Positions 2,436 to 41,385 of a stretch of 64,000 bases of DNA are shown here, in pieces. Source of the stretch: Rapana venosa. Its lineage: Eukaryota; Mollusca; Gastropoda; Neogastropoda; Muricidae. Made by a program: the position numbers and the translations under genes. How positions within the stretch are numbered: position 1 is the stretch's first letter; the number at the start of each line of letters is the position of its first letter. The notes beneath the pieces were generated by a model that did no database searches, was not told where the DNA came from, and worked only from the letters and a program-made list of their open reading frames with translations. The DNA is taken from assembly GCA_028751875.1 (NCBI GenBank), contig CM054154.1:57832567-57896566 (forward strand), written 5' to 3'.

Positions 2436-4795
2436 AACAGAATGTTTTAAGAATTAAAAAAAAGAAAATCATAAAACATAAGGACAAACAAATTACTTCA
2501 CCTACTGTTTTATTCAATCTTTTACGTTTGTACTTTAGATAATAAAAAGGTACAGGAACAAAACGTAATACTAGACATTGATTGCGTCATTACTCATTCT
2601 CTTCAAATAGCGTTTTTAACAAATAATATATTCACACAATAACTATCAAACAAGAAAGAGAAGTCAAATAAGACAATGATAATGATTATTATCATAGAGA
2701 TACAATAATAACAACAATCACCCATCAACATAACACAACAATATAACAAATAATCCCCATCACCATGAGAAACAACATAACGATGATAACAGAAAAGCAT
2801 TGGGAAAGGATGGGTTGGGGGGGGGGGGAGTATTAAGGGGTAAGGGGAAAAAAATTTCAACCAAAAAAGAAAAATAATAATAAAAAAACCAATTATTCAA
2901 ACAAGTAAAACCCCAATACCATACAAAATTAAAAAGGCCATAATCAACTGGACTATCAAACTAAAACAATGTCAAAATAAAACAATATCGCTTATAATAG
3001 TACTAATAATCTCATCTCTAACTGCAATAAAAACAGCATCCATGATAAAATCTATTGAATTAGACAAGAGAAAGGACATGAGGAGAGGAGAGCAGAGGAG
3101 AGAGAGAGAGAGGACACACTATCAAGCTATCAGGTCTACCATTTAAAAAAAAATTCCCCCTCCTTTGCACGTTGTTTTAAAATATGTAGATTATATACTA
3201 GATTGTATAGATTACTCTTACTTCTTTGCATAAATAGTGTGCCTCTTTCCTGCCTCCCCCTCCCTCCACACATATTCAGCCTGGACTGTAGAATTTCTAG
3301 TCACAGTAAGACATACTTGAATTTTTTTTTTAAAGAAATGCAGTAAGTGCTGATAAATTAAGTAGGTCGATTTGCCTATTAGTCATGGTTGATTTGCCTT
3401 ATTAGTCAATTCTAGGCTTCATGCATTAGATGGCTTTTAGCTGTGTTTTGAACTGATTTTTGTTTTTGATACATTTTAAGCGTTTTGGAAGCTTGTTTCC
3501 CTAATCACTACTGAGTACAAGAAGTTTGTTTTGTAAAGATTATTTCTTGTTGGGAAGGTTAGTAGATGATTATGTCTTGTTCATTGACTTTGAAGCTATT
3601 GGTGATCTTTGGAGGGCATTTCCATTGACAATTTTCTGAACAAATAGAGCTTTATTTAGATAAAGTCTCTTTTTAAGGGTTGGATATTGTTTGCTTGTAA
3701 TCATTTATGGTTAGGGGGCTTGGTTTTAGTAGAACAATTCAGTGCTCTTTTATATTAATCGAATGTGATATTTTTTCGATGGGTTTAGATAAGACAGACA
3801 GAATTGAAATTGGTCTGTAATTTGAAGGACAGGCAGGATCACCTGATTTGTGGACTGGTAGGATTTTTGCATTTTTAAATATGACAGGAAAGTTGTTTTT
3901 CTATATGCGCAAGTTATACAAGTATGTCAGTGTTTCAGCTACAACTTGACCACAAAGTTTAATTATTCTTCCATCTGGATTGTCTAAACCACATGTTCTG
4001 GAACTTTTTTGAAGAGACAGGCCTTCCAAGATGTCTGTGGTTGTCATTGGCAGTAGTTTAAATGGGAATTTTATTTCTTTTGATTCGATATATTGTTCTA
4101 AGTAATGCAGATCATTTTCATTTGACTTGTCATTCGATATTGCTTTGGTGGCAATGTTTGAGAAGTAGTTGTTCAATTCATCAGTGATATATCTTTAACT
4201 GTCTGTTGATTTTTGATATAGGGTTTTTTACATAATGTATTGATGGGTTTCATACTTGCGAGAGTTGATAGTTTAATTAACAACTTTTGAAAAAAAACGT
4301 TTTGATTTGCGTTTTAGTGAAGTTACTTTTTTCTTTTTGCTCTGAACTCTCTTTTGAACCATGTGTTTTTCAAATAGTCTCTTAGGTGTATTTCGGATTC
4401 TATGTGTTTTTTTTATCCAAGGTGGTTTAATTTTTTTTTTAACTCTTTTTTTATGAAAGGGGTTGTTTGTGTATAATGAAGTCAAATTCTAACTCGAATT
4501 TTCAGGCAGTTCATCTGGGTATTGATTTGCCTTTAATTAGGTCAGGTAATGGAGTTTGTAAGTTGAAAGAAATCTTGCTCGTTACAAGTTTTTAAACTAT
4601 TGTTAAAAATCGTTTTATGCTACTGTAGGTTATGTAACGATTTTTAAACAAGTAAAGACATGGATTTATGATCACTGACATCACTGAGGGAGCATATATT
4701 TGTTAAGTGTTATTTTGTAGTTAGTGTAGATATGATCTATTAATGTTCTAGATTGATTTGTTATCGAGTTGTCTATTATTAGTTGTTTTAGGGGA
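2436..4795 (-). mobile_element. LINE-A, internally deleted, minus strand
   Basis: On the minus strand the order is: end of the endonuclease domain (about 4795-4490, degraded), linker and RT N-terminal part (about 4480-3850), a jump directly to the C-terminal domain (about 3790-3480), then 3' UTR down to 2436. The RT core with motifs A, B and C is missing. The parallel copy at 35720-37565 has the same deletion in better sequence. Many single-base losses here look like sequencing error. From 4441 onward this overlaps the exactly repeated 6.5-kb block. Confidence 0.75.
3901..4176 (-). pseudogene. LINE-A linker and RT N-terminus (degraded)
   Basis: The 91-residue open frame is identical over its length to the C-terminal part of the 159-residue frame at 36634-37113. 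It ends with LCGQVVAETLTYLYNLRI, the helix that precedes RT motif 1 in CR1/L2-like enzymes. It includes the segment CGLDNPDGRIIKL, the counterpart of the conserved 'G-D-x-I' RT motif 0. No catalytic residues are present, so it cannot be active. Confidence 0.7.
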
Positions 4796-4839
4796 AAATA
4801 CGGCTTCTGCTTTAAAGTTTATAGTCCTGAACTACGGCT

Positions 4840-7800
4840 TTTGACAAGGGGGCGTACAAAATATGTTTGTGAAAACAGTAAATAACAAATTGAATCGTGA
4901 TTATACTATTAGGTTTGGTAAAAACGAAAGGATCCATACGTTATAGCGAACTATTTATATGTTTAACATTGGCGTTTATAGCATTTACAGTAATAAAAAA
5001 GTGAAATACGTGAGCAGTTACAATTAAGTGTGGCAAAGAACGGGTCATCCAGTATAGCCGTAACTAATTATAATTGTTAAATCGGCTGATTATACATTTC
5101 AAAATCTCGAGTTGATACCAAAATAAGGAAAAAGAAAAATCAAACTGAATGCAAAAACAACATTCATTAAGAATCATTCAATTACAAGTAAATCTGTTAT
5201 TGAGAATAATGTTATAAGGTTGACTATTATAATGTTTATAAAGTTATGCTGACATGGATTGTTTAATTTTGTGTTTGCATAAATTAGCTAATATATATTC
5301 ATGTTCTATTAGGACGACAAAATATAAAAATAAATGACTTTTGATTTTGTAGACTTAGAATTATGTGTTTTGTATAGTTTATATGCTTTACTTGAAAACA
5401 AAAAATTTGAATTTGTAGTCAAGTATGACACATAATGGACATGGTAATTGCATGGCAGTCTCAGTTGGAACATTTTTATTTGATTAAAACCCAGTGTTCT
5501 AAGGAATCGAGGATAATTAAGGAGTGCCTTTTATAGGAACTATTGAATAGGATATTTTTTGTTGCAAATGATTTGTGAAAAAAAAAACCAGCTATTTTAT
5601 TTTTACTTTCAAAACATCTGGTGCCAGTATTGTTTTAACTGAGCACATAAGCTATTTTGATTGAAGAAATGGCGCTATCATACAATCCAAGCCATGCTTG
5701 ACAAATCTTTTCAATTGTAACTCAGTTTCTTACCCATTCCATCTGTATAATAAAATGTTCGTAAGGCTGTTAATAAACGTGTTTGTGGAAGTTTCAATAG
5801 TTTTACCCAATATTATGCATTTACAACGGTTTTATATTTATAAAGGAATTTTGTCATCTATACGTAGTTTAGATGAAGTGTATTGAAATTTAAAAGTTTA
5901 TGGCCACATGTGTGAATTTTTCTATGTGCGTATTTATTATAAGCCCATATTTCTGAAGCGTAGATAAGCATGGTTATATTGTGTGTAAGTAATTCCAGAA
6001 TAGGGAACAGTCTATTGAGTTCAGTTTGTTATGTTTTTAGGATTTTATTAACTTTTTTTTCCTTCTACAGATTCTGGCATGAATTTGGTATTAGCTTTGT
6101 TTTGCAACACATCTAAATATTATACTATTATATTTTTACTCAGATTTCAATAAAACCATTTTTCACGCAAGATAAAGATCTTCTAAAACACACTGATTGT
6201 TTTTTCATATATGCAAATCAAAATTATCTATCCTCTTTTAAGTATTTATGGTGGGCAAAGATAACGTCTCAGGAAACGATAATATAGGTAGCAAAAAGTA
6301 GTAAGAACCTCGATTGGGGAATTAATTTGAATGCCGATGTTTTCTTTTTTGATAATCAAAGTTAGTCTACTACGAACCGAAACAGTGGGTCAACTACAAC
6401 TGTTATCCTTGGAGGCATTCAACGAATTGTGAATATTCAATTTGATACAAGTAGTATTGCATACTAAATAGTAGAGGGCCTTATAATTTCTTTTACACGT
6501 TTTTTTGTCTTAATTCACATTAATTCTATTCACAGAATAACCGCCTTTTAAATTCTACAAATGCAACTAAATTTTTTTTATGGACAGCCAAAGTTTTGAA
6601 CAGCGGTAAGAGTAAATATTGTATCTAAGTGTGTACTGTCGCTCTAAATCTTGTTAAATATTTTTTTCTTGTTATCTGCATGCGTTTAATCACTTGTTCA
6701 ACTGAAGTTATTAAGTTTACTTAATACTAGGGTGGAGTGCAATCGCGATCAGTTATCACGCATTATTCACTTATTTTATGTATCGGATTTTAAGATTTTG
6801 CCCCTGCAAATGGAAATCATTCTTTTTAAAAGGGTTAAATAAACTGAACACAAGAAAAAGTAATTACAGCTGAGTTTGATATTTCAGATTTTCAATTTTT
6901 ATCAGGGCAGCACTTTTTTCTGTTTTTTAAATGTTTAATAGCATAATTATTCTCATTTGAGTTATAGGAATATTAAACAATGGTTAAACATCTTTTATTT
7001 ATGTAGTACTTACATTATTTGTGTTTTGCACAATACAAGTAATTAAAAACTTCAAAAAATGATATATTGTTGATTAGTGATGTTAATTATTACTTAGTGA
7101 TTACGATAAAAGATTGATGATGGCAGACGTTTTGGAGTATTAGAATATCTTTTAGTTTCTTGCTTATTTCGTAAAGTCGTTTCTTTGTTTTTTAGATGAT
7201 TGTATTATTTTCGTGACGGTAGTGTAATCTTTTTGTTTCTTACATTGTTTTATACTTTGAAACTGGTTATAATAGTCTTTCACTTCTTGTATCTTTTGCT
7301 CAATTCAGGCTCGGTTTTACTATTTTTCTCTATTTACTGCTAGTCATGGCAGAGCTCCATACGGCTTACAACGTGATTAAGTTATAATCCGTGTTCATGT
7401 GAGCGGGGTGTTTCTATGCTTCTTGAAATTCTGAAAATCTAAATTCATGTTTATATACTCTACAAATCTTTGACCTATAATTTTTTACATCTCTTTTTTA
7501 TTTCGATATACCAGTATTATTATTTCCCAGGGTATTTCAACGGGGGGGTGTACGACTAACACATAATACAAGATAAAAACAGATACAATTGATAGGTACC
7601 AAGAAAATAACACTAAGCTTGCAACTTAGGGGACAAAAGTATATCCTCTATCACTCAAAAACATTCCAGATTTTGTCCCAATAAAAATAAATTTGCAAGG
7701 ACTGCCAAAATTGTATCGTTCTCTGTAGAGGCAGACACAAGTTCATATTCACAGTTCATATAATATAGAGTTATTTGAATCAATTAAAGGTCGGTTGTAT

Positions 7801-8450
7801 CTTGCGAGTTGGCATTAAAGTTTACAATATGAAAATAAGTAATCTATTTGAAAAAATATTGCAATAATGTTTCTTATAGTACAAACAATTTTAATTAATT
7901 TTTATTGTAAAGAGGACACTTTGGCACAATATAGACGTATACTAACTCTTTATAACTTACATAGTTTGTTTTTTAATGGCATTGTTGTACACTTATTTCA
8001 ATTTCTATTACGTGTTTTTTTTAAAGACTTTTACTAATAGAAGACACTCCAGAATTTTCATGCTGGGAAGTTTGTTTGAGGGGGATGAACTTTATTAATC
8101 TAGAAAACACCACTGTACTCAACGTAGAGTCAAGAAAGTTTCAGTGAGGCAAAATCCTGAACTTATTTAATAGTGTATTTCACGGAGTCATTTTAATTTA
8201 TTACAAGTTTTAACATTATATATGTAAAAATGTCATTCCTTGCTGGCAGGTGTCTGCCTTTTTTAAGATGTAGGAGAGTGATTCTGCGACTGTGTCTTTG
8301 CTGTCATGGCTGCTTTTGAGCGAGATACGGATTGCGGGAGTACGAGGAAATGATCCTGTTGTGGTAGGACTGAGGGTCAAGTGCTGAGCCTCACTGGCTG
8401 TTAGGACAGCCACGTCTCAGCGCGGGATCCGCCAACCGTCGCATGAGATT
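4840..8450 (-). pseudogene. LINE-D, degraded first copy
   Basis: A collinear but frameshift-riddled version of the LINE-D at 37570-41640. Recognisable anchors: the 3' end motif 'gacaaggggg' near 4848, the pair of 114-bp 3'-UTR repeats (about 4870-5060), and the upstream N-terminal segment around 8216-8420. The longest open frames are about 62-65 residues, against up to 248 in the better copy. I attribute most damage to sequence error because non-coding flanks are equally affected. Confidence 0.7.
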
Positions 8451-9060
8451 TTCTTTTATTCCTTCATTTTGTAGATAGTTGTTGATTGAATCTTTTCTAT
8501 TTTAGCGAAGGTGTTGTTTTTGAATCTTTTATATGCTAGTAACGTTATAGTTTCTTCAATTCTCTCTTTTTTCTTTTGAAGTGTTGTTTTTACTCTCTTT
8601 CTTTTTCATTTTTAGCTAAGTTGTTGCTTTAACTCTTCTTTTTTTAGTCAAGTTGTTGCTTTTTGAATAACTTTTCTTCTTATTTCTCTTCTCTCTTTCT
8701 TTCTTTCTTCTTCTTCTCTCTCTGTCGTCAAGTTATTGTTTCTTACTCTCACTCACTTTTTTTATTGAGTTGTAGCTTAGAACCTTATTCACCTTATTTC
8801 ATTCAATTGTTGCTTTTGATTCTCTCATTTTTAGCTTTAGAGTTGGTTTCTGACTTTTCTACATTTTATAGCTGACGTTGTTTTTTTTGAAGTCTTCTAT
8901 CTTTTTTTGTGAAATTGTTGTTTTTACGTTTAATTGTTTCTAGCTTGAAAGTTGTTGTTTCTGAAGTTCTCTTATTTTTGCTCAAGAGTTGCTTTTGAAA
9001 TCATTCAATGTTAATTTGTTGCTTTGATTTGTTATCATATTTTATTGTCTATGTACTCCT
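8450..9060. repeat. 41-bp-type minisatellite, degraded copy
   Basis: Irregular units with the core 'ttttagctcaagttgttgct' alternating with T/C-rich spacers. It corresponds to 41640-42310 and to the regular array at 1-400, with many bases missing. It lies just upstream of the LINE-D 5' end (LINE-D is on the minus strand). Confidence 0.75.
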
Positions 9061-9239
9061 ATCTTTAGTTTGTTTGTTTATATTTTGTAAGCAGTGTTAA
9101 CTAGTAGCTCATTTTCGTCAAATCCAAACTTTTTTCTCGTGAGAAATGACTTATAGTTTTCTTGCTTAACAAAACTGTATTTCCTTTGCAAAATGTTGAA
9201 ATTTTAACTGAACAGAAATCATAGAACAGTTTTTAAAAA

Positions 9240-9665
9240 ATATGAACAAAATAAAAATGGAAAAGTGGACTTGATTATGAATGGGACCTATAAAGTATTA
9301 TGACACTTTGAATCAGCTCAAGAATTTATTTAAAACTCATTTTCTATCTTTTGTTTTCATTCATTCTGTCGTTCTACCAAGAACTCCCACCCCCAATCAC
9401 TGCGGGTGTGTAAAACCTTTCTGTGTGGTGTGCGCGCACCGCGTTGTGTCTTTAATTTTGGAATTGGTTAAAAAAAAAATTATTGTAATGGTTGATTGTG
9501 AAAAGCATCGGATGAATGATTGAAAGGGCTTTGATTTTTTTTGGCAAGATATAGATGTAGAAATTTCATTGTATTATTATTTTATTTTAATTAATTATTA
9601 TATTATTTTTCCTTTATTCAATCATCATTCCTCATTTCATCATCATCATCTCATATTCATGATTA
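9240..9665 (+). mobile_element. L2-like LINE 3' end, degraded copy
   Basis: Corresponds to 42550-43010. It holds the last codons of the L2-like ORF ('aaaactcattttctatctt' region), a C-rich stretch, GTG/CGC-rich 3' UTR and the terminal 'caagatatag...agaaatttcattgta' followed by a collapsed ATT/CAT repeat (about 9570-9660). Too eroded to read as protein. Confidence 0.6.
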
Positions 9666-10973
9666 GTATATAGAACCAGAACAATGCATATATAAAAGTT
9701 ATGAAAACATGAACAGAAGATTTAAATGTAAACTCTGTATCCCTTTGACACAAGTTCTATAGAGTTTAGTCATATAACTGAAAACAAAAATTGTAGTTGT
9801 AGAAAATGTAACAGGAATCTTTCTTGTTTGAAGGATTTAAACTTATGCTACAACTCACTAGAGAGTCATACTTAAATATATCAATAACACATGATGTGAA
9901 AGCTATCTGAAAAAATAATCACAATTATTATTCGTTAAACCAGTGGAATAAAAGAAAAAAACTTTACACACAAAAAATGTTGAAGCTATACCACATTATT
10001 TTGAAATACCTAAACGTGACTATTATAGTATCACTACAAAAGCATGTGAAAACAACACAAAACCATAAATATGTATTAGAATAATAAAGTTATGCTTTAC
10101 TTCCAAATATTTTCACTTACTACAAGTGAAATGAAAAACACGATTACCAAATAAACTAATCATAGTACATTATTGCGAAAAAACTTATTTAATCAGGGCC
10201 GGTAATTGGTTATGCTTTCTAGTTTCTTGAGAAAAAATCTCTACTAAGTCAATACAAACACTGAGCGAGTAGTCGGAATCAAATGTTATAATGCGATTTA
10301 GTTATTTAGATTTAAATTCTTGTGCATTAAAGTTCAATAATTTTGTGATAATGAGTGATCTTTATAAATACAGATCAAAGACAGAAAAAATTTATTTAAA
10401 TTACTAAAGTTTTATTCAAAGTTGAATCTTATTACCGCCACTTGTAAACAAATCGACGAAATGAGTTTAATGTCATTAATAGAAATAAAAATCAAATCAC
10501 TGATGTTACAATTCAACTTAACTGGGAGTTAATAGTTAGATAAACTTCATAAATTGTATTCCAGAAATTAGTGATATTCAATGTATAACTATCAAAAGAA
10601 ACATGAATGTAACATACACTAAGTGCATAATTCAATGAGTTTGAGTTGATAACTTTCTATTTTGTCCCATGCATTGGTTTCCCGCGCATAACAAGTGTTT
10701 TTTGAAGGCAGAATCATGACTAGGAAGAGAAGTATTGGCATGTAGGACTTTCCAACTGATGTTAAGAGCACGAGTTAATCTCAATCATTCCGGGAGGAAT
10801 ATATCGGCTAGACATATTTTGTCTGCTTGTTTGTACACTCTGTTTTTGACTAGGAAAGCTAGAAAGTCTTCAAATAGATCTTAGTTTTGGAACACTAACA
10901 TAAATTATACCAAAATTTGTAAACTTCACAAGTGTACATTTGCAGACAACAATTTGTAACCTACAGCAAAACT
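9665..10973. other. AT-rich DNA, no gene seen
   Basis: No open frame, RNA gene or recognisable repeat. It aligns by eye with about 43012-44580, which has more C bases. The duplicate lies at 26049-27357. Confidence 0.6.
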
Positions 10974-11376
10974 AAATTTATTTCAAAAGACAGCACAGTG
11001 CCACAGCCCAAAGGAATAATAGCCCATTTTTTAAAAGAAAAAAGCACAACAAAAACTTGTACAAATAAAAAAGGGGACAAAAAGTATGTTGGACATAAAG
11101 TCTAGAAGAAGTTGTAGAAATCAACTCAGAAAATGCTTGTTGGTGGAGAGCAAAGCCTTCCCTAATCATACTACACAATGAAAACTACTTTTTGTGCTCA
11201 ATATATATGTTAGAAGCAGAGGGGAGTGTTTTGACAGGTATGTCTGAATGTGCCACTTCAAACAATGAGATTCAGCTGTGCTTTGAAATGCTTGTTCCCA
11301 TTGAGATAATCATATAAATTATGGTAGTTACTTGTGAAATCCAATTTTCAAAGATTTAGGAGAAATATAGATCATT

Positions 11377-11515
11377 AAGAGAGAGAAGCGAGCGAAGAGA
11401 GGTGCGTGATAGAGGGGAGAGCGAGGTGCGAGAGGAAGAGATGTGGAGACTGAGAGAGAGGAGAGGCGAGAGAGAGAGAGAGAGAGAATGAGAGCGAGAG
11501 AGTAGAGAGGAGGGC
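11377..11515. repeat. GA-rich tract
   Basis: Imperfect (GA)n with scattered C, corresponding to 45045-45175. The overlapping Ser/Leu-rich minus-strand frames of up to 110 residues are low-complexity translations of this tract. Confidence 0.85.
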
Positions 11516-12581
11516 GCACCTACAAACAATACATAATTCATTGCTATAAATATTTTTATTATGCATTGACGTCCATGAAGTAGCGAGTAGATGCATTGAG
11601 ACACAACGACACACAAACTGTTCGCTGAAAACAAAAGATACCAGAAAAAAACATATTGAAATGTTGAATACAAAAAGGGGTATCAACAGAGGAAGTAAGG
11701 TAAACAAACTTGGAACTCTAAGGTATGGCTAGAGAATGGTAAAAATATGAATGAAAGCGATTAGCAATATTAAATAGTTGAACTACTAAAAATAATGTTA
11801 ATTGTTTTCATAAGCAAAAAAGAAATTGAGACATTTTTGTATTTTGAAATTGGTGTTTATAATGCTTATAGCAAGAATTTGACTACAAGTTAATTTTGAA
11901 ATAATTATTGCATAAAAAATTATTTTCTCTATTACGGCAGTGCATGGTTGGTGGTGGTGGTGTATGCGTGCGTTCGTGTGTGGTGGGCGTGTGTGTGTGT
12001 GTGTTTGTGAGAGAGATCAAAATAGAACTTATTTCTCCTTCTAACGACACCAAATATAATGTTTGTGAGTGTTATTTATAATATGTTGCATGTATGTGTG
12101 AGTGTATGGTAATTTAATATGAATTAAACAAATGAAGGAATAGAATAGTTGAAAATGAGGTGTTTGGTTGTGACTGGTTGTTATGAAAAGGAGGCCGATT
12201 TGATTTGCACCCGTTTTCCATGACATAGTTTAGATAATGTGAATAGCAGGTATACCTAATCTCATAAAATGATAAGACAATAGAAGATCCAGTACAAAAT
12301 AGCATTTTCATAAATCAACATGATATTTTGATTGAAACAACAAAATATCTGCAACAACACTCTTGTTGGTCAACGGCAGAAGTTGATTTTAAGAGACAAA
12401 CGGAAACAATTCCCAAGGTACCTTAATGGTCCAACAGCTAAATTACGGGTAAACAGCGAGACATGGCCGGGTAAAAAAGGCCACAGCCTCCCAAACAAAA
12501 AAGGACCGATGAATAATTTAAAAAGAAATAAAGAATTTATAATAATTTGACATGATATACATTATTGGATTTGAAACTAGA

Positions 12582-13355
12582 GCCCCCCACCCCACCTCCC
12601 CCCCCCCACCCCCCCCCCCCAAATGAATAATCAAAACACTGCTGAAATGATTTTCAATTTGATCCTATAATGAGAAGTGACAATGATTAAAAACTGTTTA
12701 GTTGGCTTTCTCATTACCTATCCGTAGGACTATGGCCATTGGTGGCATATGAACTTTTGCAGTAGTTCCTCATCCGGGTCTGGCTTTCGGTTGCAAGTCG
12801 TTCCACAGGTCAGTCCATTCTTGATGTTGTTTACATCGTTTTCTTGTCATGCATTCGTTCTTGTAATGTTCTGTAGAGGACAGTTTGGCCAGTAGAGGTT
12901 GTGTGACATGCCGATCCATTTAAATTGCGTTTTTTTCATGAGTAAGATTTTTTATCCGTCTGATGGCGTTTTCCTTTGGTTTTAACTCCTCATCAGTGAT
13001 ATGTGATTGTGATTCTGTTTGAGTACCAAGGAGTTTGTCGAAAGCTCTCTCACCTTGCTGTATCCTTTTTCCATGTACTGTTATGGTTCCGTTTATGGGT
13101 TCAAAATATGATGGTCTAGGAACGATCAGTTGATTGAAGTGTTGGGATGTTGTTGTTCAGAGTCTTTCAGTTTGGTCATTGCAGTGTGGTTGGGCTGTAT
13201 GGAGAGATTTAGGTTTGATCTTTCTATTACATAGTAGATAGAAGAAGTTTGTGGATGTCTTGCTTTAAATCTGTCGGTGTGTGTATTGGATCCATCTTGT
13301 TACTGGGTTTTCTCTGCATGATCTGATGATTGTGGTAATACATTTTACATGATTA
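12582..13355 (-). pseudogene. RTE-2 C-terminal domain, degraded, plus poly-C tract
   Basis: A C-rich tract (12582-12620) is followed by the degraded counterpart of 46470-47205. Short identities such as 'catttaaattgcgtttttttcatga' fragments and 'tctgatggcgttttc' establish the alignment. No frame longer than about 70 residues survives. See the better copy for the domain description. Confidence 0.6.
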
Positions 13356-13359
13356 TGTA

Positions 13360-13740
13360 CGTGGTCGGAGGTTAGAGGTAACGCACTCGCTAACGAGCGA
13401 AAGAGTGTGGAAGTGTGCGGTGAGGTAATATTGTTTGGGCCAGAAACTTTTCATCCTGGGACGATGAGTGGTGGTTTAGGGTTGCTAGGCTTACGGGAGA
13501 AGATAAACGCGAGATTGTGGATAATCTGATATTTAGCGCCACGCAAAAGAACCACGGCAAAAGATAGTTGTCCCTGGCAACATTATTGATGGGGGGGGGG
13601 GGGGGGAAAAAGAATAGGTAGGCAAAAAATAGTAAGGTCAGGAAAAGAAAAATAAGGTGGAGCTGTCTTGTGGCGCGCGTTCTAGGCGGAGCGGACCTTT
13701 AGTCGGAATTGCGTGACTTAAAGTTGGTATCATCGGTTGC
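13360..13740 (+). mobile_element. tRNA-derived SINE, degraded copy
   Basis: Corresponds to the SINE at 47213-47625. Visible pieces: head 'gttagaggtaacgcactcgc', body 'gggccagaaacttttcatcc', 'atatttagcgccacgcaaaa', 'agttgtccctggcaacatta' and a tail resembling 'ggagctgtcttgtggcgcgc'. A 17-base G run interrupts the body where the other copy has 'tgtagaaaaaa'. Confidence 0.7.
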
Positions 13741-14704
13741 AGCACGAGTTGTAGAACAAAGTGGTTTTTAGTGTATAAGAGAGGTGGAATATTTGCGACA
13801 TCAAAATGTACCAAAATATAATCAGCAACCAAGAAACACTTCTTCTCAAAAATTTTTAAAAAACGATATGAAGAAAAACCAAAATCAGGCTTTAAAAAAT
13901 ACATAACACAGTTAAATCGGCGGCAGAGTAGACAGTACTCGGCAAATGAAGATATTTTCTGTCTGTTAAGGAACTAAGTTTCTTTAGGACAACGAATACA
14001 CAATCAGAAATGCTTAAATCCTCTACAAAAAAGCATTCTGGTAGGTTAGGTGTGGTGGTGGTTGTATAGGGATAGTTAGGAAGTAGCATCGCCATCAACC
14101 TTTTGTAGTATTCAAGTTTTGAACTTCCATTATCAGCCGAGTTTATGTGATTGAGGCGTGACTGTGTGATATTCTTTTCTTTTTATCTCAAAATTTGATT
14201 TAGAGACATTGTTGCTTTTGGAAAGTAAAAACGGAGAGGTTTCAGCTGATGATCGGTAAAGAATTGCCTCTTGAGGTCTTTTTATTTTCATAAACTCTCA
14301 ATTTAAAATGAACCATTCTTGAGTTATGCAACTTGCGTCTTTTCAACTATGATGTGATGAAGTCACGATTGAATTATCGTTTAAAGTTGTAGAGTCTAAA
14401 GAGAAACAAATTCGATGACTGGAAAAATCGCTCAAAATAAAACTGATCGATCAACATTTGATGTTCACTTTCTGAAATCATTTTCATTTGCACGTTCAGC
14501 CAAAGACATTTTTCTTATCAGATGTCATTCTGAATTTCTTATGTCCGGAAGAAAGCTTTGATATGAAATGTTGGTTTTTCCAAGGGGGGGGGTGGGTGTG
14601 GGGAAAACATTGTATTGCAAAAAATTTGGAAATGATTTTTGTCATTTAATTTACCATTTAGGTTTCATTTTGGGCAGAACAATGTTTAGCTTGTTAGTCA
14701 AGTT

Positions 14705-14925
14705 TGGCACGTTTGGGGGACAATAACGAGGTCCGTGTGAAAACACGCCGAACAATTCGAGCACGTTTAACCGTTACGCTTTTTGGAAGATAAGGAGTAG
14801 GCAATGTGTGGGTCGGGAACGGATGACAAAATTTACAAAACTGAATACACAACGGGGGACTGGATGAACATTGCTCAAGAATACTTATCATTACTTGAAA
14901 TAAAGAATATTTTTTTTACTCAAAA
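14705..14925 (+). mobile_element. SINE tail fragment, degraded copy
   Basis: Matches 48630-48845: 'ggggacaataacgaggtccg', 'acacgccgaacaattcgagc', 'gtgtgggtcgggaacggatg', 'acaaaatttacaaaactgaa'. The same tail is part of the more complete SINE at 31272-31560. Confidence 0.65.
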
Positions 14926-15204
14926 TGTTCACCATGGGGGTACTGAGTTTATCAATATTACCTACTCAAAAACGCATAAGTAATTCTCTTTTTTTTTTCC
15001 TCTCTTTCTCTCTCTTTTTTTTTTACAATCAGGGATAGCATCGGGACAGATGGGGACAGCAAAAGAGAGGAAAAAGAGACAGAAATGTGTGTCACATACG
15101 CACCAAAACACGCACTCACGCCACACGCAAGCCGTACGCAGCGTCGCACGAGCTCGCAACAACAAACACACACACCACCAACACACCACACAACAAACAC
15201 AACA

Positions 15205-17915
15205 ACAGAAGTTTTTTCAAGTCGTTTACAACATGCAAAAGTTATACTGTCCATAAACCTCAGGTGACTGCTTTCTCTTCACTTACTGCCAATTTCACTT
15301 TCGCTCTGTACTCATCTAAGACATTGTGAAAAAATATACAAAATCCTAATTTTCCTTTATAAAAACAATTATTGACGCGGATCAATCAGGGTTTCGTAAA
15401 AATATTCTGTAATGCTTAAATAGTGCGAAGTCTAAACATTATAAATGAACAATAAGTTTATGGCCTTTTTTGTTGGTTTGACAAAAAGCATTTGCTTGTG
15501 ATCAACATCTTTGTTCTTGGTAAATGAATTGTCAAAACTGTGAAGTTATCAACTATAGAAAGTATATGTTAATAGGCAGCCGATTTGTATCTGTACATAA
15601 ACACAGCTCCGACTATCCCTTAGCATGGTGTTATAATGTCAGTATTCGGGACATCTGTTTTCGTATCTGTAAAAGAATATCTGTTTATTAAATGTAAAGT
15701 GAAATGTTTGAACCCGTACACTTCTTAAGTAGTGATTCAGATCAGTCGCTAACTCGACACTTCAATCTGAATTCCGATTGTTCTTTGGACTAATGAAAAC
15801 ACCAAGTCCTTAAATGCACAAAAAACGTGTATGTTAACGTTCGAAAGACAGAAAAGCAAAAATGTAATGATAGGGTTCACTTGCGTGTTGGGGATAAACG
15901 GAATGTTGAAGAATTGACTAAAAAATATTGGTATACCATTGAAAAAATAATGATATGGACTGATACGACTGTCATAGGTACGCTAGTAAGGTCTTCAATT
16001 TATTCCAAAAATAAAAACATCTCTAATAATTTTCGCAACAAATTTTTTTGCTGGTCATTTTAAATATAGATATGCGTCAACTCTTTGGATAATGAGAGGA
16101 AGAACTTTGAAATTATTCAAGATGACTATAAACTAGAGTAAACTTGAATTGTTCTAAAACAAGCACTCGAATTGTGGATTATAAGCAAATAAATATCTGA
16201 CATTCGAAAGACTAAATTCAATAAAGTGGTTTCTGCAAAAAGTTGTTAATAAATGTTCACGATTACAAAGCTTTAAGTACAACAAACTAGACACAACACT
16301 TTGCTAACTTCAAGAAGAAATATAATCTGTAAATCGAGCTTTGTATTAAGGCGTGGTGTGGAATGAACTTCCCAAATTGAAATTCTTAACCTAGATCAGT
16401 TTAAAAAATCTACAAAAGTATTTTATGAATAAAGTAAGAAACGATTTTTAAGTTTAAGGAGTGATTAAGTGTCATGACGTTGATTTGTATTAAAAATGAT
16501 CTGACCTAAGTTATCATATCATATAGACGTAATGTGTAGCATAGATATATATCTGGGTTGATATGATATCAACGACGAATATATTGGTGTGTGGTGTGTG
16601 TGCGTGTTGTGTGTTGTTGTGTGTGTGTTTTGGTGTGTGTGTGGTGTGTGTGTGTGTGATATTGTGTTTTTGTGTACAGTGAGTGTGTACACGATTTGTT
16701 CGATGCGTTGTTATATTATTGTTGTGCTCTTGTTCGTTTGGCGTTTTTACTTTTTTGCTGTTTAGGCCTTTTTTATGTTCTTTTTGTATTACACTTAAAA
16801 ATGTGATTTATTTATTTTGTAGTGTTAGTTTCTGATTATCTGTATTAGATGAGCTAAATTGTTATTGCGTGAGTTAGTCTGCTGGGTGGGTTTAATTGCT
16901 GAATTTTTCTTTGATCGAAGGATTACGTTGTCTGCTCCAAATCAAAAAGACATGTAACATCTTGGTTGTATTGGAACCAGGGGGAAGGGAGGGAATGGGT
17001 TCTTTGTCTATAAACTTCCATTCTGCTCTGAAATTCCCACATCTCGCTGTTGGTTATTATGTATTCCTTATATATGATTAATTATGTGGTTTGACGGGGA
17101 TATGGTGCGGATCGCTGTATGTGTATGGTAAACTGTATAATGATACATCAGTTTCCTTGTTTATTATTTGTTTGTTGTTGTTATTGTTTGTAGTAGTGGT
17201 AGGGGTGGGGTTTGGTTTATATTCCTATTGTTTGTTTTGGGATTAGGGTGGATTTTTGGGGAGGGGGAGGGATATTTAGGATTTTTTTCTCGTCTTGTGT
17301 TAGTTCTTATGTTCTTCTTTGTCGCTTGGCTGTTATTTTGTCTTTGTTCGTTATTGTTGTTGAGTGGGTGTGTATCTTTGTTGTTTGTTTGATTGTTTAT
17401 TTCCTTGTTGTGGTTGTTCTAGGTTGATTTCAATTTTATTGAAGTATTAATCAGTTGTGTTTTCTGTTGAAGGTTTGTGGTATATGTGTGTGTGAGAGGG
17501 GGGGGGGGGGGGTGCGAAAATCAGTTGGTGTGTTTTTTTATTGTTTATTTCGTTTTGTCTTTCTTAGGGTTTTTTTTTGGGGTGGGTTTTTACTTGTTTT
17601 TTTTTTAGTTATGAGGGATATTTTTTCACGATTTTTGAATTATTTGAAATGTTATGGTCTAATGTTTTTATGGGTTTTTTGTTTTGTTTTTTATTCACAT
17701 ATTGCATATGTTATAGGGTTTTTTAGGTGTTTGATTTGTTATCGTATACTAGATTCAGTTTTTTTTTTATTTCTATGGTCTGATATACCATTAATTTTTT
17801 TTTCGTTTTTTTTTTTTCTTTAGATAGACGCTTGATGTAAAAAATCAAATGATGTTTATTCAATGTACCTTGAAAAATAACAGTTTGACTTTGACTTTGA
17901 CTTGACTTGGACACC
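15205..17915 (+). pseudogene. LINE-A RT, C-terminus and 3' UTR, degraded copy
   Basis: Corresponds to 49195-52025. RT sequence (about 15205-16440) is broken into frames of 80 residues or fewer. It is followed by a GT tract (about 16578-16660), T-rich 3' UTR and the LINE-A terminus at 17821-17915, ending 'tttgactttgacttgacttg'. Frames of 70-122 residues in the T-rich part (17168-17823) are Phe/Leu/Val-rich translations of UTR, not membrane proteins. Confidence 0.7.
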
Positions 17916-18117
17916 ACACACAAAATACCTATGTCAGGTTTCGGTACAATATCCAATCATAATTTGTTTGTAATTGTGTGGTAAGTGTTGTTGTCAGTAT
18001 ATTTTTATTGATTGAAAATCGTTTTAATACACTTCAGAATCTCTTAGGTAAATGGTTAGCAGCACAGCAACTTTTAATGATGACTTTCATAGGATTAGAT
18101 AGCAAAGTAAAAAAGTA

Positions 18118-18300
18118 TGAAAGAGAGAGAGAGAGCTGAGCGAGAGCGAGAGAGAGAGAGGGAGAGGCGAGAGAGATGAGAGAGCTGAGAGAGAGAGAGA
18201 GATAGAGATGAGAGAGCGAGAGGCGAGAGAGAGCGACGCTTTTGACGCTTTGCACCAATTTATGTATTGCCAAAGTTGTATTGGGACAAGGGGGGTTATA
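18118..18300. repeat. GA tract next to a LINE-D-type 3' end motif
   Basis: (GA)n at 18118-18235 is followed on the minus strand by the motif running from 'cccccttgtcccaatacaa' to 'taaattggtgcaaagcg'. This is the degraded form of the 'ccccttgtcaa...gacaataaa' terminus seen at 37570-37615 and 52355-52400. Confidence 0.6.
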
Positions 18301-19399
18301 CACGACTTTTTTTGCTAAATACCAAATAATATACAAGATAAAATCCTATGATGCATTTTTAGAATTGAAAACCAACAAAACAAAAAATGAGCTCTTATGA
18401 TGGATAGACTTTAAGTTGAGTAAACTAGTTTCAAATTGAAAACAAACGTTATAACAAGGGATGAAATAAGGCACCATATAGCAATAACTAAACATAAATG
18501 AAAAGAAAATTCTTCGAATGCTCTTAATAGGACATCCATTGACCTTATGTAGCGAGGCGAGATAGGAGGGGGGGGGGGTGGAGGCGGAACCCTGTGTGAA
18601 ATGTACTTCTTCATGAATTCCTTACTTGACGCACTGATAAGGACAACGCTATGCTTTAAGCTTCAATGTAAAAAACTCAGACACTCTACACTACAAAAAT
18701 GAATACAGTAATGAAAAACGATGAGATTTCTTAAGAAAAAACATTCTACTAAATCAAATTGATCACTACAAAAGAAAACTACCACTCAAGGTTCTGAATG
18801 GACTTCATACAAGGATCCCCAGATAAACAGGCACTTGCCAAATAGTGAATAAACGCCAGTAATCAATTGAAACTTCCAAAAGAATGACAAGAATTAACAG
18901 ACTTTAAATCTCAAGTCAAAGTGTTAATTTCGGTCGCTTTTTGCAAACCAAATTTAACTTAGTAGTTCTAACCATGAAAACCTTTAAAAGAAGTACGAGC
19001 TAAGTAAATCACACAAAAATGAATGAATTTGGTCGCACCTTGACTAGCAAATAGGTCGTGAGATTTGATTATGGACCTCTGGTTTTTATCTTATACTGGG
19101 TGAGTATACACTGTGGGTTCACAATTAACGTCTCTACCGGATTTTCATGAAGAATAATGCTGACATTAAGTACATTATTCAGTCCATTGAATTTGTTGAC
19201 ATCGTTTTCATGCCATATATGGCTAGGCTAGATTTTAGGTAGCAGTGATACTATGTTGGCACAAACACACTGTGTTATGTGAAGTGATAATCGTGGTTGG
19301 GTTAGGTGCGCCTTGTGATATCTTCTTCCTTTGAGGATTTCAGGGTAGGTAGTGTAGTGCCAATCTGGTAGGTAATCCAACGTGCTTACTCTTGAATAA

Positions 19400-19740
19400 A
19401 TTCGTTAAACTTTCCACTTTCTTTGATTTCAGACCGTATTTTTCTCACATTGATAGCTATTTCCTAAATTATTAATATCTTTGATAGTAATATGTCATTA
19501 AAATCATTTCTGATACCATCTTCCTCAAAACAGTTAGTTCTTGATTTACCAACATTTGATTTACCAATAGCTTACATTTGGGAAGCAATCCATGTCTATT
19601 TTCTTCTTTGATGTACCTATAATTTTTTTATCTATATGGAAATTTAAAGCCATATATCTAAAATATTTCATTGTTTTATTTAGGGATATCACTCAGTTTA
19701 CAAAATCTGATTTAAGCCCTTCGCCAAAAAACAAAGCTTC
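19400..19740 (-). other. Degenerate coding-like repeat, degraded copy
   Basis: Counterpart of 53560-53960, with units starting 'ctttgattt' at 19421 and 'ctttgatagt' at 19479. Spacing is no longer a multiple of three, consistent with lost bases. See the better copy. Confidence 0.45.
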
Positions 19741-20190
19741 AATTTATCCAATGTCTGAAATCTAACAAATTTCAGTCGGCTACACATGTTACTACAAGCA
19801 TAGATACCACAAGTTCCCTAACAACATGATTCTTGGTGAATCTTAGCCAACAAGCACGCTTGCATTTTATTAAATGATCTGCCCTGCCGTCATTCGCAAC
19901 CTGAAGTGACTCGTGAGATCAATTCTCTCTAAATGCATGGGTTAGTCTATTCCAAGTGGAGAGAACTAATCGCGACTCAAAAGTCCTTGGAACCGATCGA
20001 AACTTTATAAAAGTAGTTGAATGCAAAATTAATTTTCAACAAACTCAAAACCAAAAATGATTTGTTTCTCTTTTTTCGATTATTTACGTTTTTCCCAAAG
20101 GAGGTATTTGAAGGGAAATGTGGAAGAGGGGAGGGGGGGCTGTTCCGTGTTTGGGGGAGGAGGCACCAATTTTTGGATATCTAGTGCAGA

Positions 20191-21180
20191 AACAGACTGA
20201 ATTGAATTGGTCTGTTTAATTTGAAGGACGGCAGGTCCAGATTGTGGACTGGTAGGCTTTTTGCATTTTAATTGACAGAAAGTTTGTTTTTTATTGGAAC
20301 GTACTCCCGCAATGTCCAGAGTTTCGGCTAAAACTTGACCCAAAGTTTATTTTTTCAATCAGGATTGTCTAAACCCTGGTCTGGTAACATTTTTGAAGAG
20401 ACAGGCCTTCAAGATGTCAGTGGTGTCATAGGCAGTAGTTTACATGGGAATTTTATTATTTTGCTTGATATATGTTAATAATGCAGCTCCATTTTTTCAT
20501 TTGATTGTCATTGGTTATTGTTGGTGGCAATGTTTGAGAAGTTAGATGTTCAATTTCATCTGTGCTATATCCTTTAATTGTTGTTGTTTTTGATATAGTT
20601 ATTACATAATGTATTGATGGATTTTCCCATATTGGGAGGTCTAGATGTAATTAAAAACTTTTGAAAAAAAAAACGTTTTCGATCTTTTGCGTTATAGTGT
20701 GAAGTTACTTTGTTTGTTTGTGCTCTGTAACTTGCTCTTTTGAACCATGTGTTTTCAAATCGTTCTTAGGTGTAATTTCGCAGATTTATGTGTTTTGTTA
20801 TCAGGTGGTTTTATTTTTTATTTAAACTCTTTTTTTATGAAAGGGGTTGTTTGTGTATAATGAAGTCAAATTCTAACTCGAATTTTCAGGCAGTTCATCT
20901 GGGTATTGATTTGCCTTTAATTAGGTCAGGTAATGGAGTTTGTAAGTTGAAAGAAATCTTGCTCGTTACAAGTTTTTAAACTATTGTTAAAAATCGTTTT
21001 ATGCTACTGTAGGTTATGTAACGATTTTTAAACAAGTAAAGACATGGATTTATGATCACTGACATCACTGAGGGAGCATATATTTGTTAAGTGTTATTTT
21101 GTAGTTAGTGTAGATATGATCTATTAATGTTCTAGATTGATTTGTTATCGAGTTGTCTATTATTAGTTGTTTTAGGGGAA
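20191..21180 (-). mobile_element. LINE-A fragment at a suspected false join
   Basis: From 20191 ('aacagactgaattgaattgg') the sequence is LINE-A on the minus strand, matching about 3794 onward and 36525 onward. It includes a decayed version of the linker/RT N-terminus (20340-20700) and then the endonuclease end inside the exact block. It follows directly on 'ctagtgcaga', where the other version of the locus continues differently, so I suspect the assembly jumped between copies of LINE-A here. Confidence 0.7.
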
Positions 21181-24100
21181 AATACGGCTTCTGCTTTAAA
21201 GTTTATAGTCCTGAACTACGGCTTTTGACAAGGGGGCGTACAAAATATGTTTGTGAAAACAGTAAATAACAAATTGAATCGTGATTATACTATTAGGTTT
21301 GGTAAAAACGAAAGGATCCATACGTTATAGCGAACTATTTATATGTTTAACATTGGCGTTTATAGCATTTACAGTAATAAAAAAGTGAAATACGTGAGCA
21401 GTTACAATTAAGTGTGGCAAAGAACGGGTCATCCAGTATAGCCGTAACTAATTATAATTGTTAAATCGGCTGATTATACATTTCAAAATCTCGAGTTGAT
21501 ACCAAAATAAGGAAAAAGAAAAATCAAACTGAATGCAAAAACAACATTCATTAAGAATCATTCAATTACAAGTAAATCTGTTATTGAGAATAATGTTATA
21601 AGGTTGACTATTATAATGTTTATAAAGTTATGCTGACATGGATTGTTTAATTTTGTGTTTGCATAAATTAGCTAATATATATTCATGTTCTATTAGGACG
21701 ACAAAATATAAAAATAAATGACTTTTGATTTTGTAGACTTAGAATTATGTGTTTTGTATAGTTTATATGCTTTACTTGAAAACAAAAAATTTGAATTTGT
21801 AGTCAAGTATGACACATAATGGACATGGTAATTGCATGGCAGTCTCAGTTGGAACATTTTTATTTGATTAAAACCCAGTGTTCTAAGGAATCGAGGATAA
21901 TTAAGGAGTGCCTTTTATAGGAACTATTGAATAGGATATTTTTTGTTGCAAATGATTTGTGAAAAAAAAAACCAGCTATTTTATTTTTACTTTCAAAACA
22001 TCTGGTGCCAGTATTGTTTTAACTGAGCACATAAGCTATTTTGATTGAAGAAATGGCGCTATCATACAATCCAAGCCATGCTTGACAAATCTTTTCAATT
22101 GTAACTCAGTTTCTTACCCATTCCATCTGTATAATAAAATGTTCGTAAGGCTGTTAATAAACGTGTTTGTGGAAGTTTCAATAGTTTTACCCAATATTAT
22201 GCATTTACAACGGTTTTATATTTATAAAGGAATTTTGTCATCTATACGTAGTTTAGATGAAGTGTATTGAAATTTAAAAGTTTATGGCCACATGTGTGAA
22301 TTTTTCTATGTGCGTATTTATTATAAGCCCATATTTCTGAAGCGTAGATAAGCATGGTTATATTGTGTGTAAGTAATTCCAGAATAGGGAACAGTCTATT
22401 GAGTTCAGTTTGTTATGTTTTTAGGATTTTATTAACTTTTTTTTCCTTCTACAGATTCTGGCATGAATTTGGTATTAGCTTTGTTTTGCAACACATCTAA
22501 ATATTATACTATTATATTTTTACTCAGATTTCAATAAAACCATTTTTCACGCAAGATAAAGATCTTCTAAAACACACTGATTGTTTTTTCATATATGCAA
22601 ATCAAAATTATCTATCCTCTTTTAAGTATTTATGGTGGGCAAAGATAACGTCTCAGGAAACGATAATATAGGTAGCAAAAAGTAGTAAGAACCTCGATTG
22701 GGGAATTAATTTGAATGCCGATGTTTTCTTTTTTGATAATCAAAGTTAGTCTACTACGAACCGAAACAGTGGGTCAACTACAACTGTTATCCTTGGAGGC
22801 ATTCAACGAATTGTGAATATTCAATTTGATACAAGTAGTATTGCATACTAAATAGTAGAGGGCCTTATAATTTCTTTTACACGTTTTTTTGTCTTAATTC
22901 ACATTAATTCTATTCACAGAATAACCGCCTTTTAAATTCTACAAATGCAACTAAATTTTTTTTATGGACAGCCAAAGTTTTGAACAGCGGTAAGAGTAAA
23001 TATTGTATCTAAGTGTGTACTGTCGCTCTAAATCTTGTTAAATATTTTTTTCTTGTTATCTGCATGCGTTTAATCACTTGTTCAACTGAAGTTATTAAGT
23101 TTACTTAATACTAGGGTGGAGTGCAATCGCGATCAGTTATCACGCATTATTCACTTATTTTATGTATCGGATTTTAAGATTTTGCCCCTGCAAATGGAAA
23201 TCATTCTTTTTAAAAGGGTTAAATAAACTGAACACAAGAAAAAGTAATTACAGCTGAGTTTGATATTTCAGATTTTCAATTTTTATCAGGGCAGCACTTT
23301 TTTCTGTTTTTTAAATGTTTAATAGCATAATTATTCTCATTTGAGTTATAGGAATATTAAACAATGGTTAAACATCTTTTATTTATGTAGTACTTACATT
23401 ATTTGTGTTTTGCACAATACAAGTAATTAAAAACTTCAAAAAATGATATATTGTTGATTAGTGATGTTAATTATTACTTAGTGATTACGATAAAAGATTG
23501 ATGATGGCAGACGTTTTGGAGTATTAGAATATCTTTTAGTTTCTTGCTTATTTCGTAAAGTCGTTTCTTTGTTTTTTAGATGATTGTATTATTTTCGTGA
23601 CGGTAGTGTAATCTTTTTGTTTCTTACATTGTTTTATACTTTGAAACTGGTTATAATAGTCTTTCACTTCTTGTATCTTTTGCTCAATTCAGGCTCGGTT
23701 TTACTATTTTTCTCTATTTACTGCTAGTCATGGCAGAGCTCCATACGGCTTACAACGTGATTAAGTTATAATCCGTGTTCATGTGAGCGGGGTGTTTCTA
23801 TGCTTCTTGAAATTCTGAAAATCTAAATTCATGTTTATATACTCTACAAATCTTTGACCTATAATTTTTTACATCTCTTTTTTATTTCGATATACCAGTA
23901 TTATTATTTCCCAGGGTATTTCAACGGGGGGGTGTACGACTAACACATAATACAAGATAAAAACAGATACAATTGATAGGTACCAAGAAAATAACACTAA
24001 GCTTGCAACTTAGGGGACAAAAGTATATCCTCTATCACTCAAAAACATTCCAGATTTTGTCCCAATAAAAATAAATTTGCAAGGACTGCCAAAATTGTAT

Positions 24101-27100
24101 CGTTCTCTGTAGAGGCAGACACAAGTTCATATTCACAGTTCATATAATATAGAGTTATTTGAATCAATTAAAGGTCGGTTGTATCTTGCGAGTTGGCATT
24201 AAAGTTTACAATATGAAAATAAGTAATCTATTTGAAAAAATATTGCAATAATGTTTCTTATAGTACAAACAATTTTAATTAATTTTTATTGTAAAGAGGA
24301 CACTTTGGCACAATATAGACGTATACTAACTCTTTATAACTTACATAGTTTGTTTTTTAATGGCATTGTTGTACACTTATTTCAATTTCTATTACGTGTT
24401 TTTTTTAAAGACTTTTACTAATAGAAGACACTCCAGAATTTTCATGCTGGGAAGTTTGTTTGAGGGGGATGAACTTTATTAATCTAGAAAACACCACTGT
24501 ACTCAACGTAGAGTCAAGAAAGTTTCAGTGAGGCAAAATCCTGAACTTATTTAATAGTGTATTTCACGGAGTCATTTTAATTTATTACAAGTTTTAACAT
24601 TATATATGTAAAAATGTCATTCCTTGCTGGCAGGTGTCTGCCTTTTTTAAGATGTAGGAGAGTGATTCTGCGACTGTGTCTTTGCTGTCATGGCTGCTTT
24701 TGAGCGAGATACGGATTGCGGGAGTACGAGGAAATGATCCTGTTGTGGTAGGACTGAGGGTCAAGTGCTGAGCCTCACTGGCTGTTAGGACAGCCACGTC
24801 TCAGCGCGGGATCCGCCAACCGTCGCATGAGATTTTCTTTTATTCCTTCATTTTGTAGATAGTTGTTGATTGAATCTTTTCTATTTTAGCGAAGGTGTTG
24901 TTTTTGAATCTTTTATATGCTAGTAACGTTATAGTTTCTTCAATTCTCTCTTTTTTCTTTTGAAGTGTTGTTTTTACTCTCTTTCTTTTTCATTTTTAGC
25001 TAAGTTGTTGCTTTAACTCTTCTTTTTTTAGTCAAGTTGTTGCTTTTTGAATAACTTTTCTTCTTATTTCTCTTCTCTCTTTCTTTCTTTCTTCTTCTTC
25101 TCTCTCTGTCGTCAAGTTATTGTTTCTTACTCTCACTCACTTTTTTTATTGAGTTGTAGCTTAGAACCTTATTCACCTTATTTCATTCAATTGTTGCTTT
25201 TGATTCTCTCATTTTTAGCTTTAGAGTTGGTTTCTGACTTTTCTACATTTTATAGCTGACGTTGTTTTTTTTGAAGTCTTCTATCTTTTTTTGTGAAATT
25301 GTTGTTTTTACGTTTAATTGTTTCTAGCTTGAAAGTTGTTGTTTCTGAAGTTCTCTTATTTTTGCTCAAGAGTTGCTTTTGAAATCATTCAATGTTAATT
25401 TGTTGCTTTGATTTGTTATCATATTTTATTGTCTATGTACTCCTATCTTTAGTTTGTTTGTTTATATTTTGTAAGCAGTGTTAACTAGTAGCTCATTTTC
25501 GTCAAATCCAAACTTTTTTCTCGTGAGAAATGACTTATAGTTTTCTTGCTTAACAAAACTGTATTTCCTTTGCAAAATGTTGAAATTTTAACTGAACAGA
25601 AATCATAGAACAGTTTTTAAAAAATATGAACAAAATAAAAATGGAAAAGTGGACTTGATTATGAATGGGACCTATAAAGTATTATGACACTTTGAATCAG
25701 CTCAAGAATTTATTTAAAACTCATTTTCTATCTTTTGTTTTCATTCATTCTGTCGTTCTACCAAGAACTCCCACCCCCAATCACTGCGGGTGTGTAAAAC
25801 CTTTCTGTGTGGTGTGCGCGCACCGCGTTGTGTCTTTAATTTTGGAATTGGTTAAAAAAAAAATTATTGTAATGGTTGATTGTGAAAAGCATCGGATGAA
25901 TGATTGAAAGGGCTTTGATTTTTTTTGGCAAGATATAGATGTAGAAATTTCATTGTATTATTATTTTATTTTAATTAATTATTATATTATTTTTCCTTTA
26001 TTCAATCATCATTCCTCATTTCATCATCATCATCTCATATTCATGATTAGTATATAGAACCAGAACAATGCATATATAAAAGTTATGAAAACATGAACAG
26101 AAGATTTAAATGTAAACTCTGTATCCCTTTGACACAAGTTCTATAGAGTTTAGTCATATAACTGAAAACAAAAATTGTAGTTGTAGAAAATGTAACAGGA
26201 ATCTTTCTTGTTTGAAGGATTTAAACTTATGCTACAACTCACTAGAGAGTCATACTTAAATATATCAATAACACATGATGTGAAAGCTATCTGAAAAAAT
26301 AATCACAATTATTATTCGTTAAACCAGTGGAATAAAAGAAAAAAACTTTACACACAAAAAATGTTGAAGCTATACCACATTATTTTGAAATACCTAAACG
26401 TGACTATTATAGTATCACTACAAAAGCATGTGAAAACAACACAAAACCATAAATATGTATTAGAATAATAAAGTTATGCTTTACTTCCAAATATTTTCAC
26501 TTACTACAAGTGAAATGAAAAACACGATTACCAAATAAACTAATCATAGTACATTATTGCGAAAAAACTTATTTAATCAGGGCCGGTAATTGGTTATGCT
26601 TTCTAGTTTCTTGAGAAAAAATCTCTACTAAGTCAATACAAACACTGAGCGAGTAGTCGGAATCAAATGTTATAATGCGATTTAGTTATTTAGATTTAAA
26701 TTCTTGTGCATTAAAGTTCAATAATTTTGTGATAATGAGTGATCTTTATAAATACAGATCAAAGACAGAAAAAATTTATTTAAATTACTAAAGTTTTATT
26801 CAAAGTTGAATCTTATTACCGCCACTTGTAAACAAATCGACGAAATGAGTTTAATGTCATTAATAGAAATAAAAATCAAATCACTGATGTTACAATTCAA
26901 CTTAACTGGGAGTTAATAGTTAGATAAACTTCATAAATTGTATTCCAGAAATTAGTGATATTCAATGTATAACTATCAAAAGAAACATGAATGTAACATA
27001 CACTAAGTGCATAATTCAATGAGTTTGAGTTGATAACTTTCTATTTTGTCCCATGCATTGGTTTCCCGCGCATAACAAGTGTTTTTTGAAGGCAGAATCA

Positions 27101-27357
27101 TGACTAGGAAGAGAAGTATTGGCATGTAGGACTTTCCAACTGATGTTAAGAGCACGAGTTAATCTCAATCATTCCGGGAGGAATATATCGGCTAGACATA
27201 TTTTGTCTGCTTGTTTGTACACTCTGTTTTTGACTAGGAAAGCTAGAAAGTCTTCAAATAGATCTTAGTTTTGGAACACTAACATAAATTATACCAAAAT
27301 TTGTAAACTTCACAAGTGTACATTTGCAGACAACAATTTGTAACCTACAGCAAAACT
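20825..27357. repeat. 6,533-bp block, second exact copy
   Basis: Identical to 4441-10973 as far as I checked, at a constant offset of 16,384. Contents at the shifted positions: degraded LINE-D (about 21224-24834, minus), minisatellite (24834-25444), L2 3' end (25624-26049), AT-rich DNA (26049-27357). After 27357 it runs straight into an L2-like LINE, whereas the first copy continues as the better third copy does. The right-hand junction is therefore unique to this copy. Confidence 0.93.
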
Positions 27358-28024
27358 TCAGTTTTCCACCAAGAGTTTCAATCACTTTTTGGGGGACCAA
27401 TTTCAGCCTCTCTCCCAAGAAACTTATCAATCTGGTGACTTTAACTTCCACTTGACAACCAGTCTTCTCCTGATTTTAGCCTGTTTCTTTTTCTTTGTCC
27501 AACCACTCTCTTTCCCAGCTGGTAAACGAACCAACACACCGATCTGGTCACATTTTAGACTGGCTTATCACTGATGTTTCATAAGGTCTATTAACCCCTC
27601 TAAACACTACAATGATGTTCTCAGCCAACTGCTTGATGAGCATGCACCTCCCACTGACCGTCTCCTGCCTGATAGGCCATGTGCGCCATGGAAATAATAG
27701 TAGTAGTAATAATAATAATAATAATAATGAAAATAATAATAAATGGAATTTATATAGCGCTGTATCTTGCACAGACAGATCAAAGCGCTTGCACTCAACT
27801 CATTCTTACACAGTCATACAAACAATAGCAAGTAATAGTTCTAACAAGTCCAAATGCGCGCGCACACACACAACACACACACACACACACACACCCACAC
27901 ACACACAACACACACACACACAACACACACACAGGTTATACACTTTGGCAGGGTGATGGGATTTTGGGCTGTTGAAAAGCAGGGATAGCTATGAAATGAA
28001 ACAGAAGAGGAAATTCTTACGATA

Positions 28025-28138: not shown

Positions 28139-28141
28139 ATA

Positions 28142-28266: not shown

Positions 28267-28327
<61 letters not shown>

Positions 28328-41354: not shown

Positions 41355-41385
41355 GTTTTCACCATTATAATTTAAAAATGTCCAT

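Follow-up and report, generated by a model that had tools for sequence, protein, structure and literature searches.

False duplications in genome assemblies arise from haplotypes and from read errors and are often about as long as a read, as described in PMC8081667 and PMC9516828, where one example of a false ‘homotype’ duplication is attributed to a bug in FALCON. Some long-read gap fills are also described as keeping read-level error; those made by LR_Gapcloser from simulated PacBio reads are given a mean identity of about 88% in the DENTIST paper (PMC8848313), and the account of LR_Gapcloser itself (PMC6324547) has a single gap filled, in some cases, from two reads. The window analyzed here, a stretch of 64,000 nucleotides from an assembly of the gastropod Rapana venosa, contains an exact repeat that is most likely an artefact of data processing or assembly and not a duplication in the organism's DNA. 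At face value, the stretch would count as a segmental duplication accompanied by extra diverged transposon copies; it is most likely neither. The features are collected in Table 1.

Table 1 Features of the 64,000-nucleotide window. R denotes the unit of 16,384 bases, with index counted from 0.
Feature	Coordinates	Strand	Basis
Left flank, near-clean consensus	3500..4440	+	96.1% identity to 36228-37179; 93% over last 235 bases
Whole raw-read-like patch, 22,917 bases	4441..27357	+	71-89% identity to third copy, strong C loss; flanks 93-100% and 96-100%
Exact repeat, first appearance	4441..10973	+	R index 633-7165; identical to 20825-27357
Rest of R, first turn (index 7166-16383)	10974..20191	+	80.2% identity to 44577-54372, same C-loss pattern
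Restart	20191..20192	+	third-copy position drops from 54372 to about 36527, without filler sequence; exact base known to within a few bases
Head of R (index 0-632)	20192..20824	+	80.5% identity to 3808-4440, 83.0% to 36527-37187; C loss 0.227, G loss 0.038
Exact repeat, second appearance	20825..27357	+	identical to 4441-10973
Right flank, clean consensus	27358..30649	+	98.7% identity to about 60725-64000; no C bias
500-N scaffold gap between two contigs with the same locus	33389..33888	.	self-comparison
Third copy (yardstick), probable other haplotype	35560..54372	+	self-comparison of window
Endonuclease and reverse-transcriptase ORFs, LINE-like element	56617-57498, 57795-58313, 58713-60017
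Further reverse-transcriptase ORFs	28957-29667; 39393-40139; 32853 onward	minus (39393-40139)

The exact repeat and its error signature

Base-by-base comparison of the two appearances gives identity at 6,533 of 6,533 positions, in a match that cannot be extended by one base at either edge. Their offset is exactly 16,384, and this is also the commonest offset among the 60-mers shared within the window (6,474 pairs; next, 928). The initial annotation had described this repeat, its lack of a net indel and its offset, all of which the alignment confirms. It had also placed a third copy at 37190-44580. That copy exists, but it is longer: 2811-20190 aligns with 35560-54372, and 20192-27356 with 36527-44585.

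The third copy can be used as a yardstick for sequence quality. In bins, identity to the contig right of the N gap is 93-100% over 3500-4440, 71-89% over 4441-20190, 81-85% over 20192-20824 and 96-100% over 27357-30649, the last compared against about 60724-64000; the window offers no yardstick sequence for 30650-33388. As in a raw-read gap fill, the borders between clean and read-quality sequence are sharp on both sides, near 4441 and 27357. The near-clean left flank loses both C (0.052) and G (0.045), and its consensus quality drops to 93% over 4205-4440, right before the patch, as at a thinly covered contig end.

Within the patch, the three noisy stretches 20192-20824, 4441-10973 and 10974-20190 match the third copy at 83.0%, 79.5% and 80.2% identity. 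In the same order, the C of the third copy is lost at rates of 0.227, 0.433 and 0.341 and the G at 0.038, 0.030 and 0.025, a 6- to 14-fold difference, while the rates for A and T are 0.09-0.10 and 0.04-0.055. Transitions and transversions number 3/28, 63/254 and 67/400. Of 44 bins, 43 show more C loss than G loss; the other contains two C and shows no loss. The following base has some influence on isolated C (0.20-0.27 before G, 0.41-0.44 before T), but its loss stays within 0.20-0.44 across the nine contexts, compared with 0.01-0.04 across the nine for isolated G. Dense single-base losses common to both copies had been noted before; this was right and can be sharpened, in that C is chiefly lost. 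The earlier stress on homopolymers is not borne out as regards losses, which are mostly one-base deletions away from homopolymers: only 158 of 620 single-base deletions in 4441-10973 and 197 of 663 in 10974-20190 lie next to the same base, compared with background values of 0.47 and 0.48. A template of 17,193 bases corresponds to 15,750 noisy bases, a ratio of 0.916, and the longest stop-free frames reach 80, 126 and 80 aa in the three noisy stretches, compared with 242-443 aa in four clean stretches.

Evolutionary change affects both strands and tends to favor transitions. In 4441-27357 only C is heavily lost, and on one strand, transversions far outnumber transitions, and most deletions are of one base and lie outside homopolymers; because of this, we infer from the letters that the patch is raw-read sequence and not consensus, and that its one-strand C loss is base-calling noise of one sequenced strand and not the work of evolution. 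The loss of one base may point to a weak dye channel, of the PacBio type. More generally, copies that have truly diverged can be told from raw-read sequence by whether one base is lost in strong excess on one strand.

An old diverged paralogue was considered as the cause of the 79% identity and rejected, because the loss is mainly of one base on one strand, transversions prevail and a reverse-transcriptase ORF is broken. ORFs no longer present in the noisy copies are retained in the third copy. Its 248-aa reverse-transcriptase ORF (39396-40139, minus strand) survives in each noisy copy as fragments only, in two frames, with 50% identity over 80 residues and 38% over 101 residues.

Two independent derivations of one locus, 3808-4440 and 20192-20824, are 80.5% alike, and two raw reads would differ at least equally, so that 6,533 identical letters represent one sequence used twice. 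The proposal that the same consensus had been used twice is thus supported as to the double use, the shared losses being read errors, but not as to consensus, since the sequence looks like a raw read. It is highly improbable that the locus was in fact recently duplicated in tandem and that a single uncorrected sequence was inserted at each of the two sites. Exact identity and tandem order are the only features that formally fit a fresh duplication, and against them stand letters that are raw-read noise, in a region where two derivations of a single locus are about 20% apart, a joint without homology and a length that is a power of two. In self-comparison, the third copy has no such tandem duplication. 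Separately sequenced loci are not what the two copies represent, their raw-read errors being shared over the full 6,533 bases.

A unit of 16,384 bases and its restart

In the second pass, the exact repeat is preceded by a head of 633 bases (20192-20824), which is a noisy version of the left flank 3808-4440; in the first pass, the clean left flank stands in its place. Head and 4441-20191 together make 633 + 15,751 = 16,384 bases, the unit R. This sum equals the offset for any exact restart base, so unit length and offset are one fact. Along the whole patch, R begins at index 633 and continues to its last base, after which it starts anew at 0 and breaks off at index 7,165. The initial annotation had allowed that the 2^14 offset might be a buffer or block artefact, a suggestion made more likely by the finding that the offset is also the length of the whole noisy unit.

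Both joints of the patch were compared for similarity. As a positive control, the overlap of the head of R with the left flank scores 170, against a shuffled mean of 14.0. The continuation of R after its exit has no resemblance to the right flank (score 12 over the first 300 bases, shuffled mean 11.2), and when 10974-20191 is compared with the right flank, the 15 best matches all lie within the CA/GT arrays of the flank. A search for a right anchoring of the read in 54373-60723 gives nothing at E 1e-3; at E 10, the best among the 30 matches listed has E 0.052. At the restart, the end and the start of the unit have no similarity in the third copy, scoring 11 and 11 against shuffled means of 12.4 and 12.0, so neither overlap nor recombination explains it. 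No homology was thus detected at either the restart or the exit.

These comparisons bear on the origin of the unit. If the repeat were an assembly-graph edge of 16,384 bases, either a cycle or a repeat edge, written out 1.4 times, exact copies with shared errors would also be expected. However, a cycle requires the unit's end and start to overlap, which they do not in the third copy, and the first pass starts from a clean left flank, unlike R's head. We regard such an edge as very unlikely.

A two-sided fill is a more serious competitor, though still a doubtful one. Here a read R of exactly 16,384 bases, a length reached by chance or because reads had been cut to length, would have been placed twice, with its tail laid from the left contig end and its head from the right. 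This yields the observed order of tail then head and requires no particular patch length. However, R past index 7,165 should then resemble the right flank, which it does not, and, unless read length was capped, hitting exactly 2^14 bases would be a coincidence that we estimate at about 1 in 10,000.

The reading that we prefer, and hold to be probable, is that a 2^14 wrap or a stale buffer acted on a longer read while a gap was being bridged. One uncorrected long read would have bridged two clean contig ends, one near 4440 and the other near 27358; for positions beyond base 16,384 of the sequence in storage, the letters would have been taken a second time from its start. Possible causes are a 14-bit index that wrapped, a 16,384-byte text buffer that kept its old contents, or a double reading of one 4,096-byte page in which bases are packed at 2 bits each. 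On the first turn, the read would take over from the clean left flank at index 633 and run to index 16,383; on the second, it would begin at index 0 and give way to the clean right flank at 7,165. R would then be one read, cut from an original of at least 23,550 bases. The patch has nearly the right length, 22,917 bases against 23,543 for the corresponding interval of the third copy, but the wrong letters after 16,384, as expected if an index wrapped or a buffer went stale. Against this reading stands a length discrepancy: the 6,350 third-copy bases that the patch lacks predict about 5,820 noisy bases where 7,166 are present, and about 1.35 kb is left unexplained unless this haplotype carries an insertion there or the flank was joined elsewhere in a repeat.

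The simplest reading of R itself is one read with drifting quality, its error pattern being common to the whole unit but not uniform. C loss is 20/88 in the head and 43/125 in the following 800 bases (Fisher p 0.07); it is highest in the middle of R and falls along the tail, to 0.14-0.36 in sizeable bins from 16574 on. Insertions rise from 25 per kb in 4441-10973 to 50 per kb in 10974-20190. Because C loss varies along R and insertions rise, R may instead be two joined reads.

We propose only tentatively that such a wrap reflects a systematic, so far unrecognized fault in a program for read handling or gap closing, which would return the first bases again once a stored read passes 16,384. Among the papers listed in literature searches, no description of a 16,384-base restart fault was seen, which is a weak negative; two of these papers, PMC13419748 and PMC9679248, contain the number 16384 once each. 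If the proposal is true, every raw-read fill longer than 16,384 bases made by the faulty program carries a false exact repeat with a period of 2^14, and a simple genome-wide test for repeats of this period follows. As a screen, exact repeats with a power-of-two period inside raw-quality stretches can be used to mark faulty fills.

The third copy and other content of the window

The two contigs flanking the N gap, 938-30649 and 33889-64000, share pieces in the same order. Identity is 98.7% between 27356-30649 and 60723-64000 and 92.0% over 938-2151, where there is no C bias (C 0.025, G 0.034); it is only 74% over 2811-3310, in a cruder alignment and within an inverted-repeat region. Gaps of 500 N are a default of some Hi-C scaffolders. 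Judging from this self-comparison, the third copy is probably the other haplotype, set beside its allele by scaffolding across the 500-N gap; a nearby paralogue is possible.

Both contigs contain long inverted-repeat arms, about 70-85% alike, at 944-1912/2593-3475 and 33893-34647/35562-36202, and the contig right of the N gap begins within one such arm. The arms possibly belong to a transposon whose termini are long inverted repeats. A 41-base tandem unit forms related arrays at 7-403 and 41637-42300; the latter lies inside the third copy, and the array at 7-403 is therefore separate.

When 10 ORFs were submitted, seven matched reverse transcriptase or endonuclease and three matched nothing. 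The sequence at 62308-63018 repeats the reverse-transcriptase ORF at 28957-29667. Among the 120 matches listed, of 3,959 obtained with only 7,986 candidates scored, 10 name an organism; we take these to be a rotifer, a sea spider, a crab and sea slugs. A bacterial or phage origin is not supported, the domains found being reverse transcriptase and endonuclease. No tRNA was found in the window in a search with bacterial settings, and no Rfam match reached the gathering score.

Comparison with known assembly artefacts

False ‘heterotype’, or haplotype, duplications offer the closest parallel for the third copy. As in the cases described in PMC8081667 and PMC9516828, the contigs flanking the 500-N gap share a locus in the same order, at 98.7% in its clean right part. 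Heterotype duplication would account for the third copy in this way, but not for the exact repeat.

The patch can be likened to an uncorrected long-read gap fill, with low-identity sequence between clean contig ends, and it may bridge a former gap. Of the two flank overlaps that a filling read should have, the left is present and the right was not found in the comparisons above. The false restart sets the patch apart from the gap fills described in the accounts of LR_Gapcloser (PMC6324547) and DENTIST (PMC8848313).

The repeat itself is most like a false ‘homotype’ duplication, in which one locus appears twice through read errors or an assembly step (PMC8081667, PMC9516828). Its extra copy comes from the same genomic sequence with sequencing errors, the read-error pattern being identical in both copies. 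The homotype duplications described in these two sources lie at contig boundaries or represent under-collapsed sequence, whereas here letter-identical raw copies lie in one contig, with a restart after 2^14 bases and no gap; the sole N run of the window lies outside the interval between them. Because neither a gap nor a contig boundary separates the copies, the repeat is classed as resembling a homotype duplication and not as a typical case of one.
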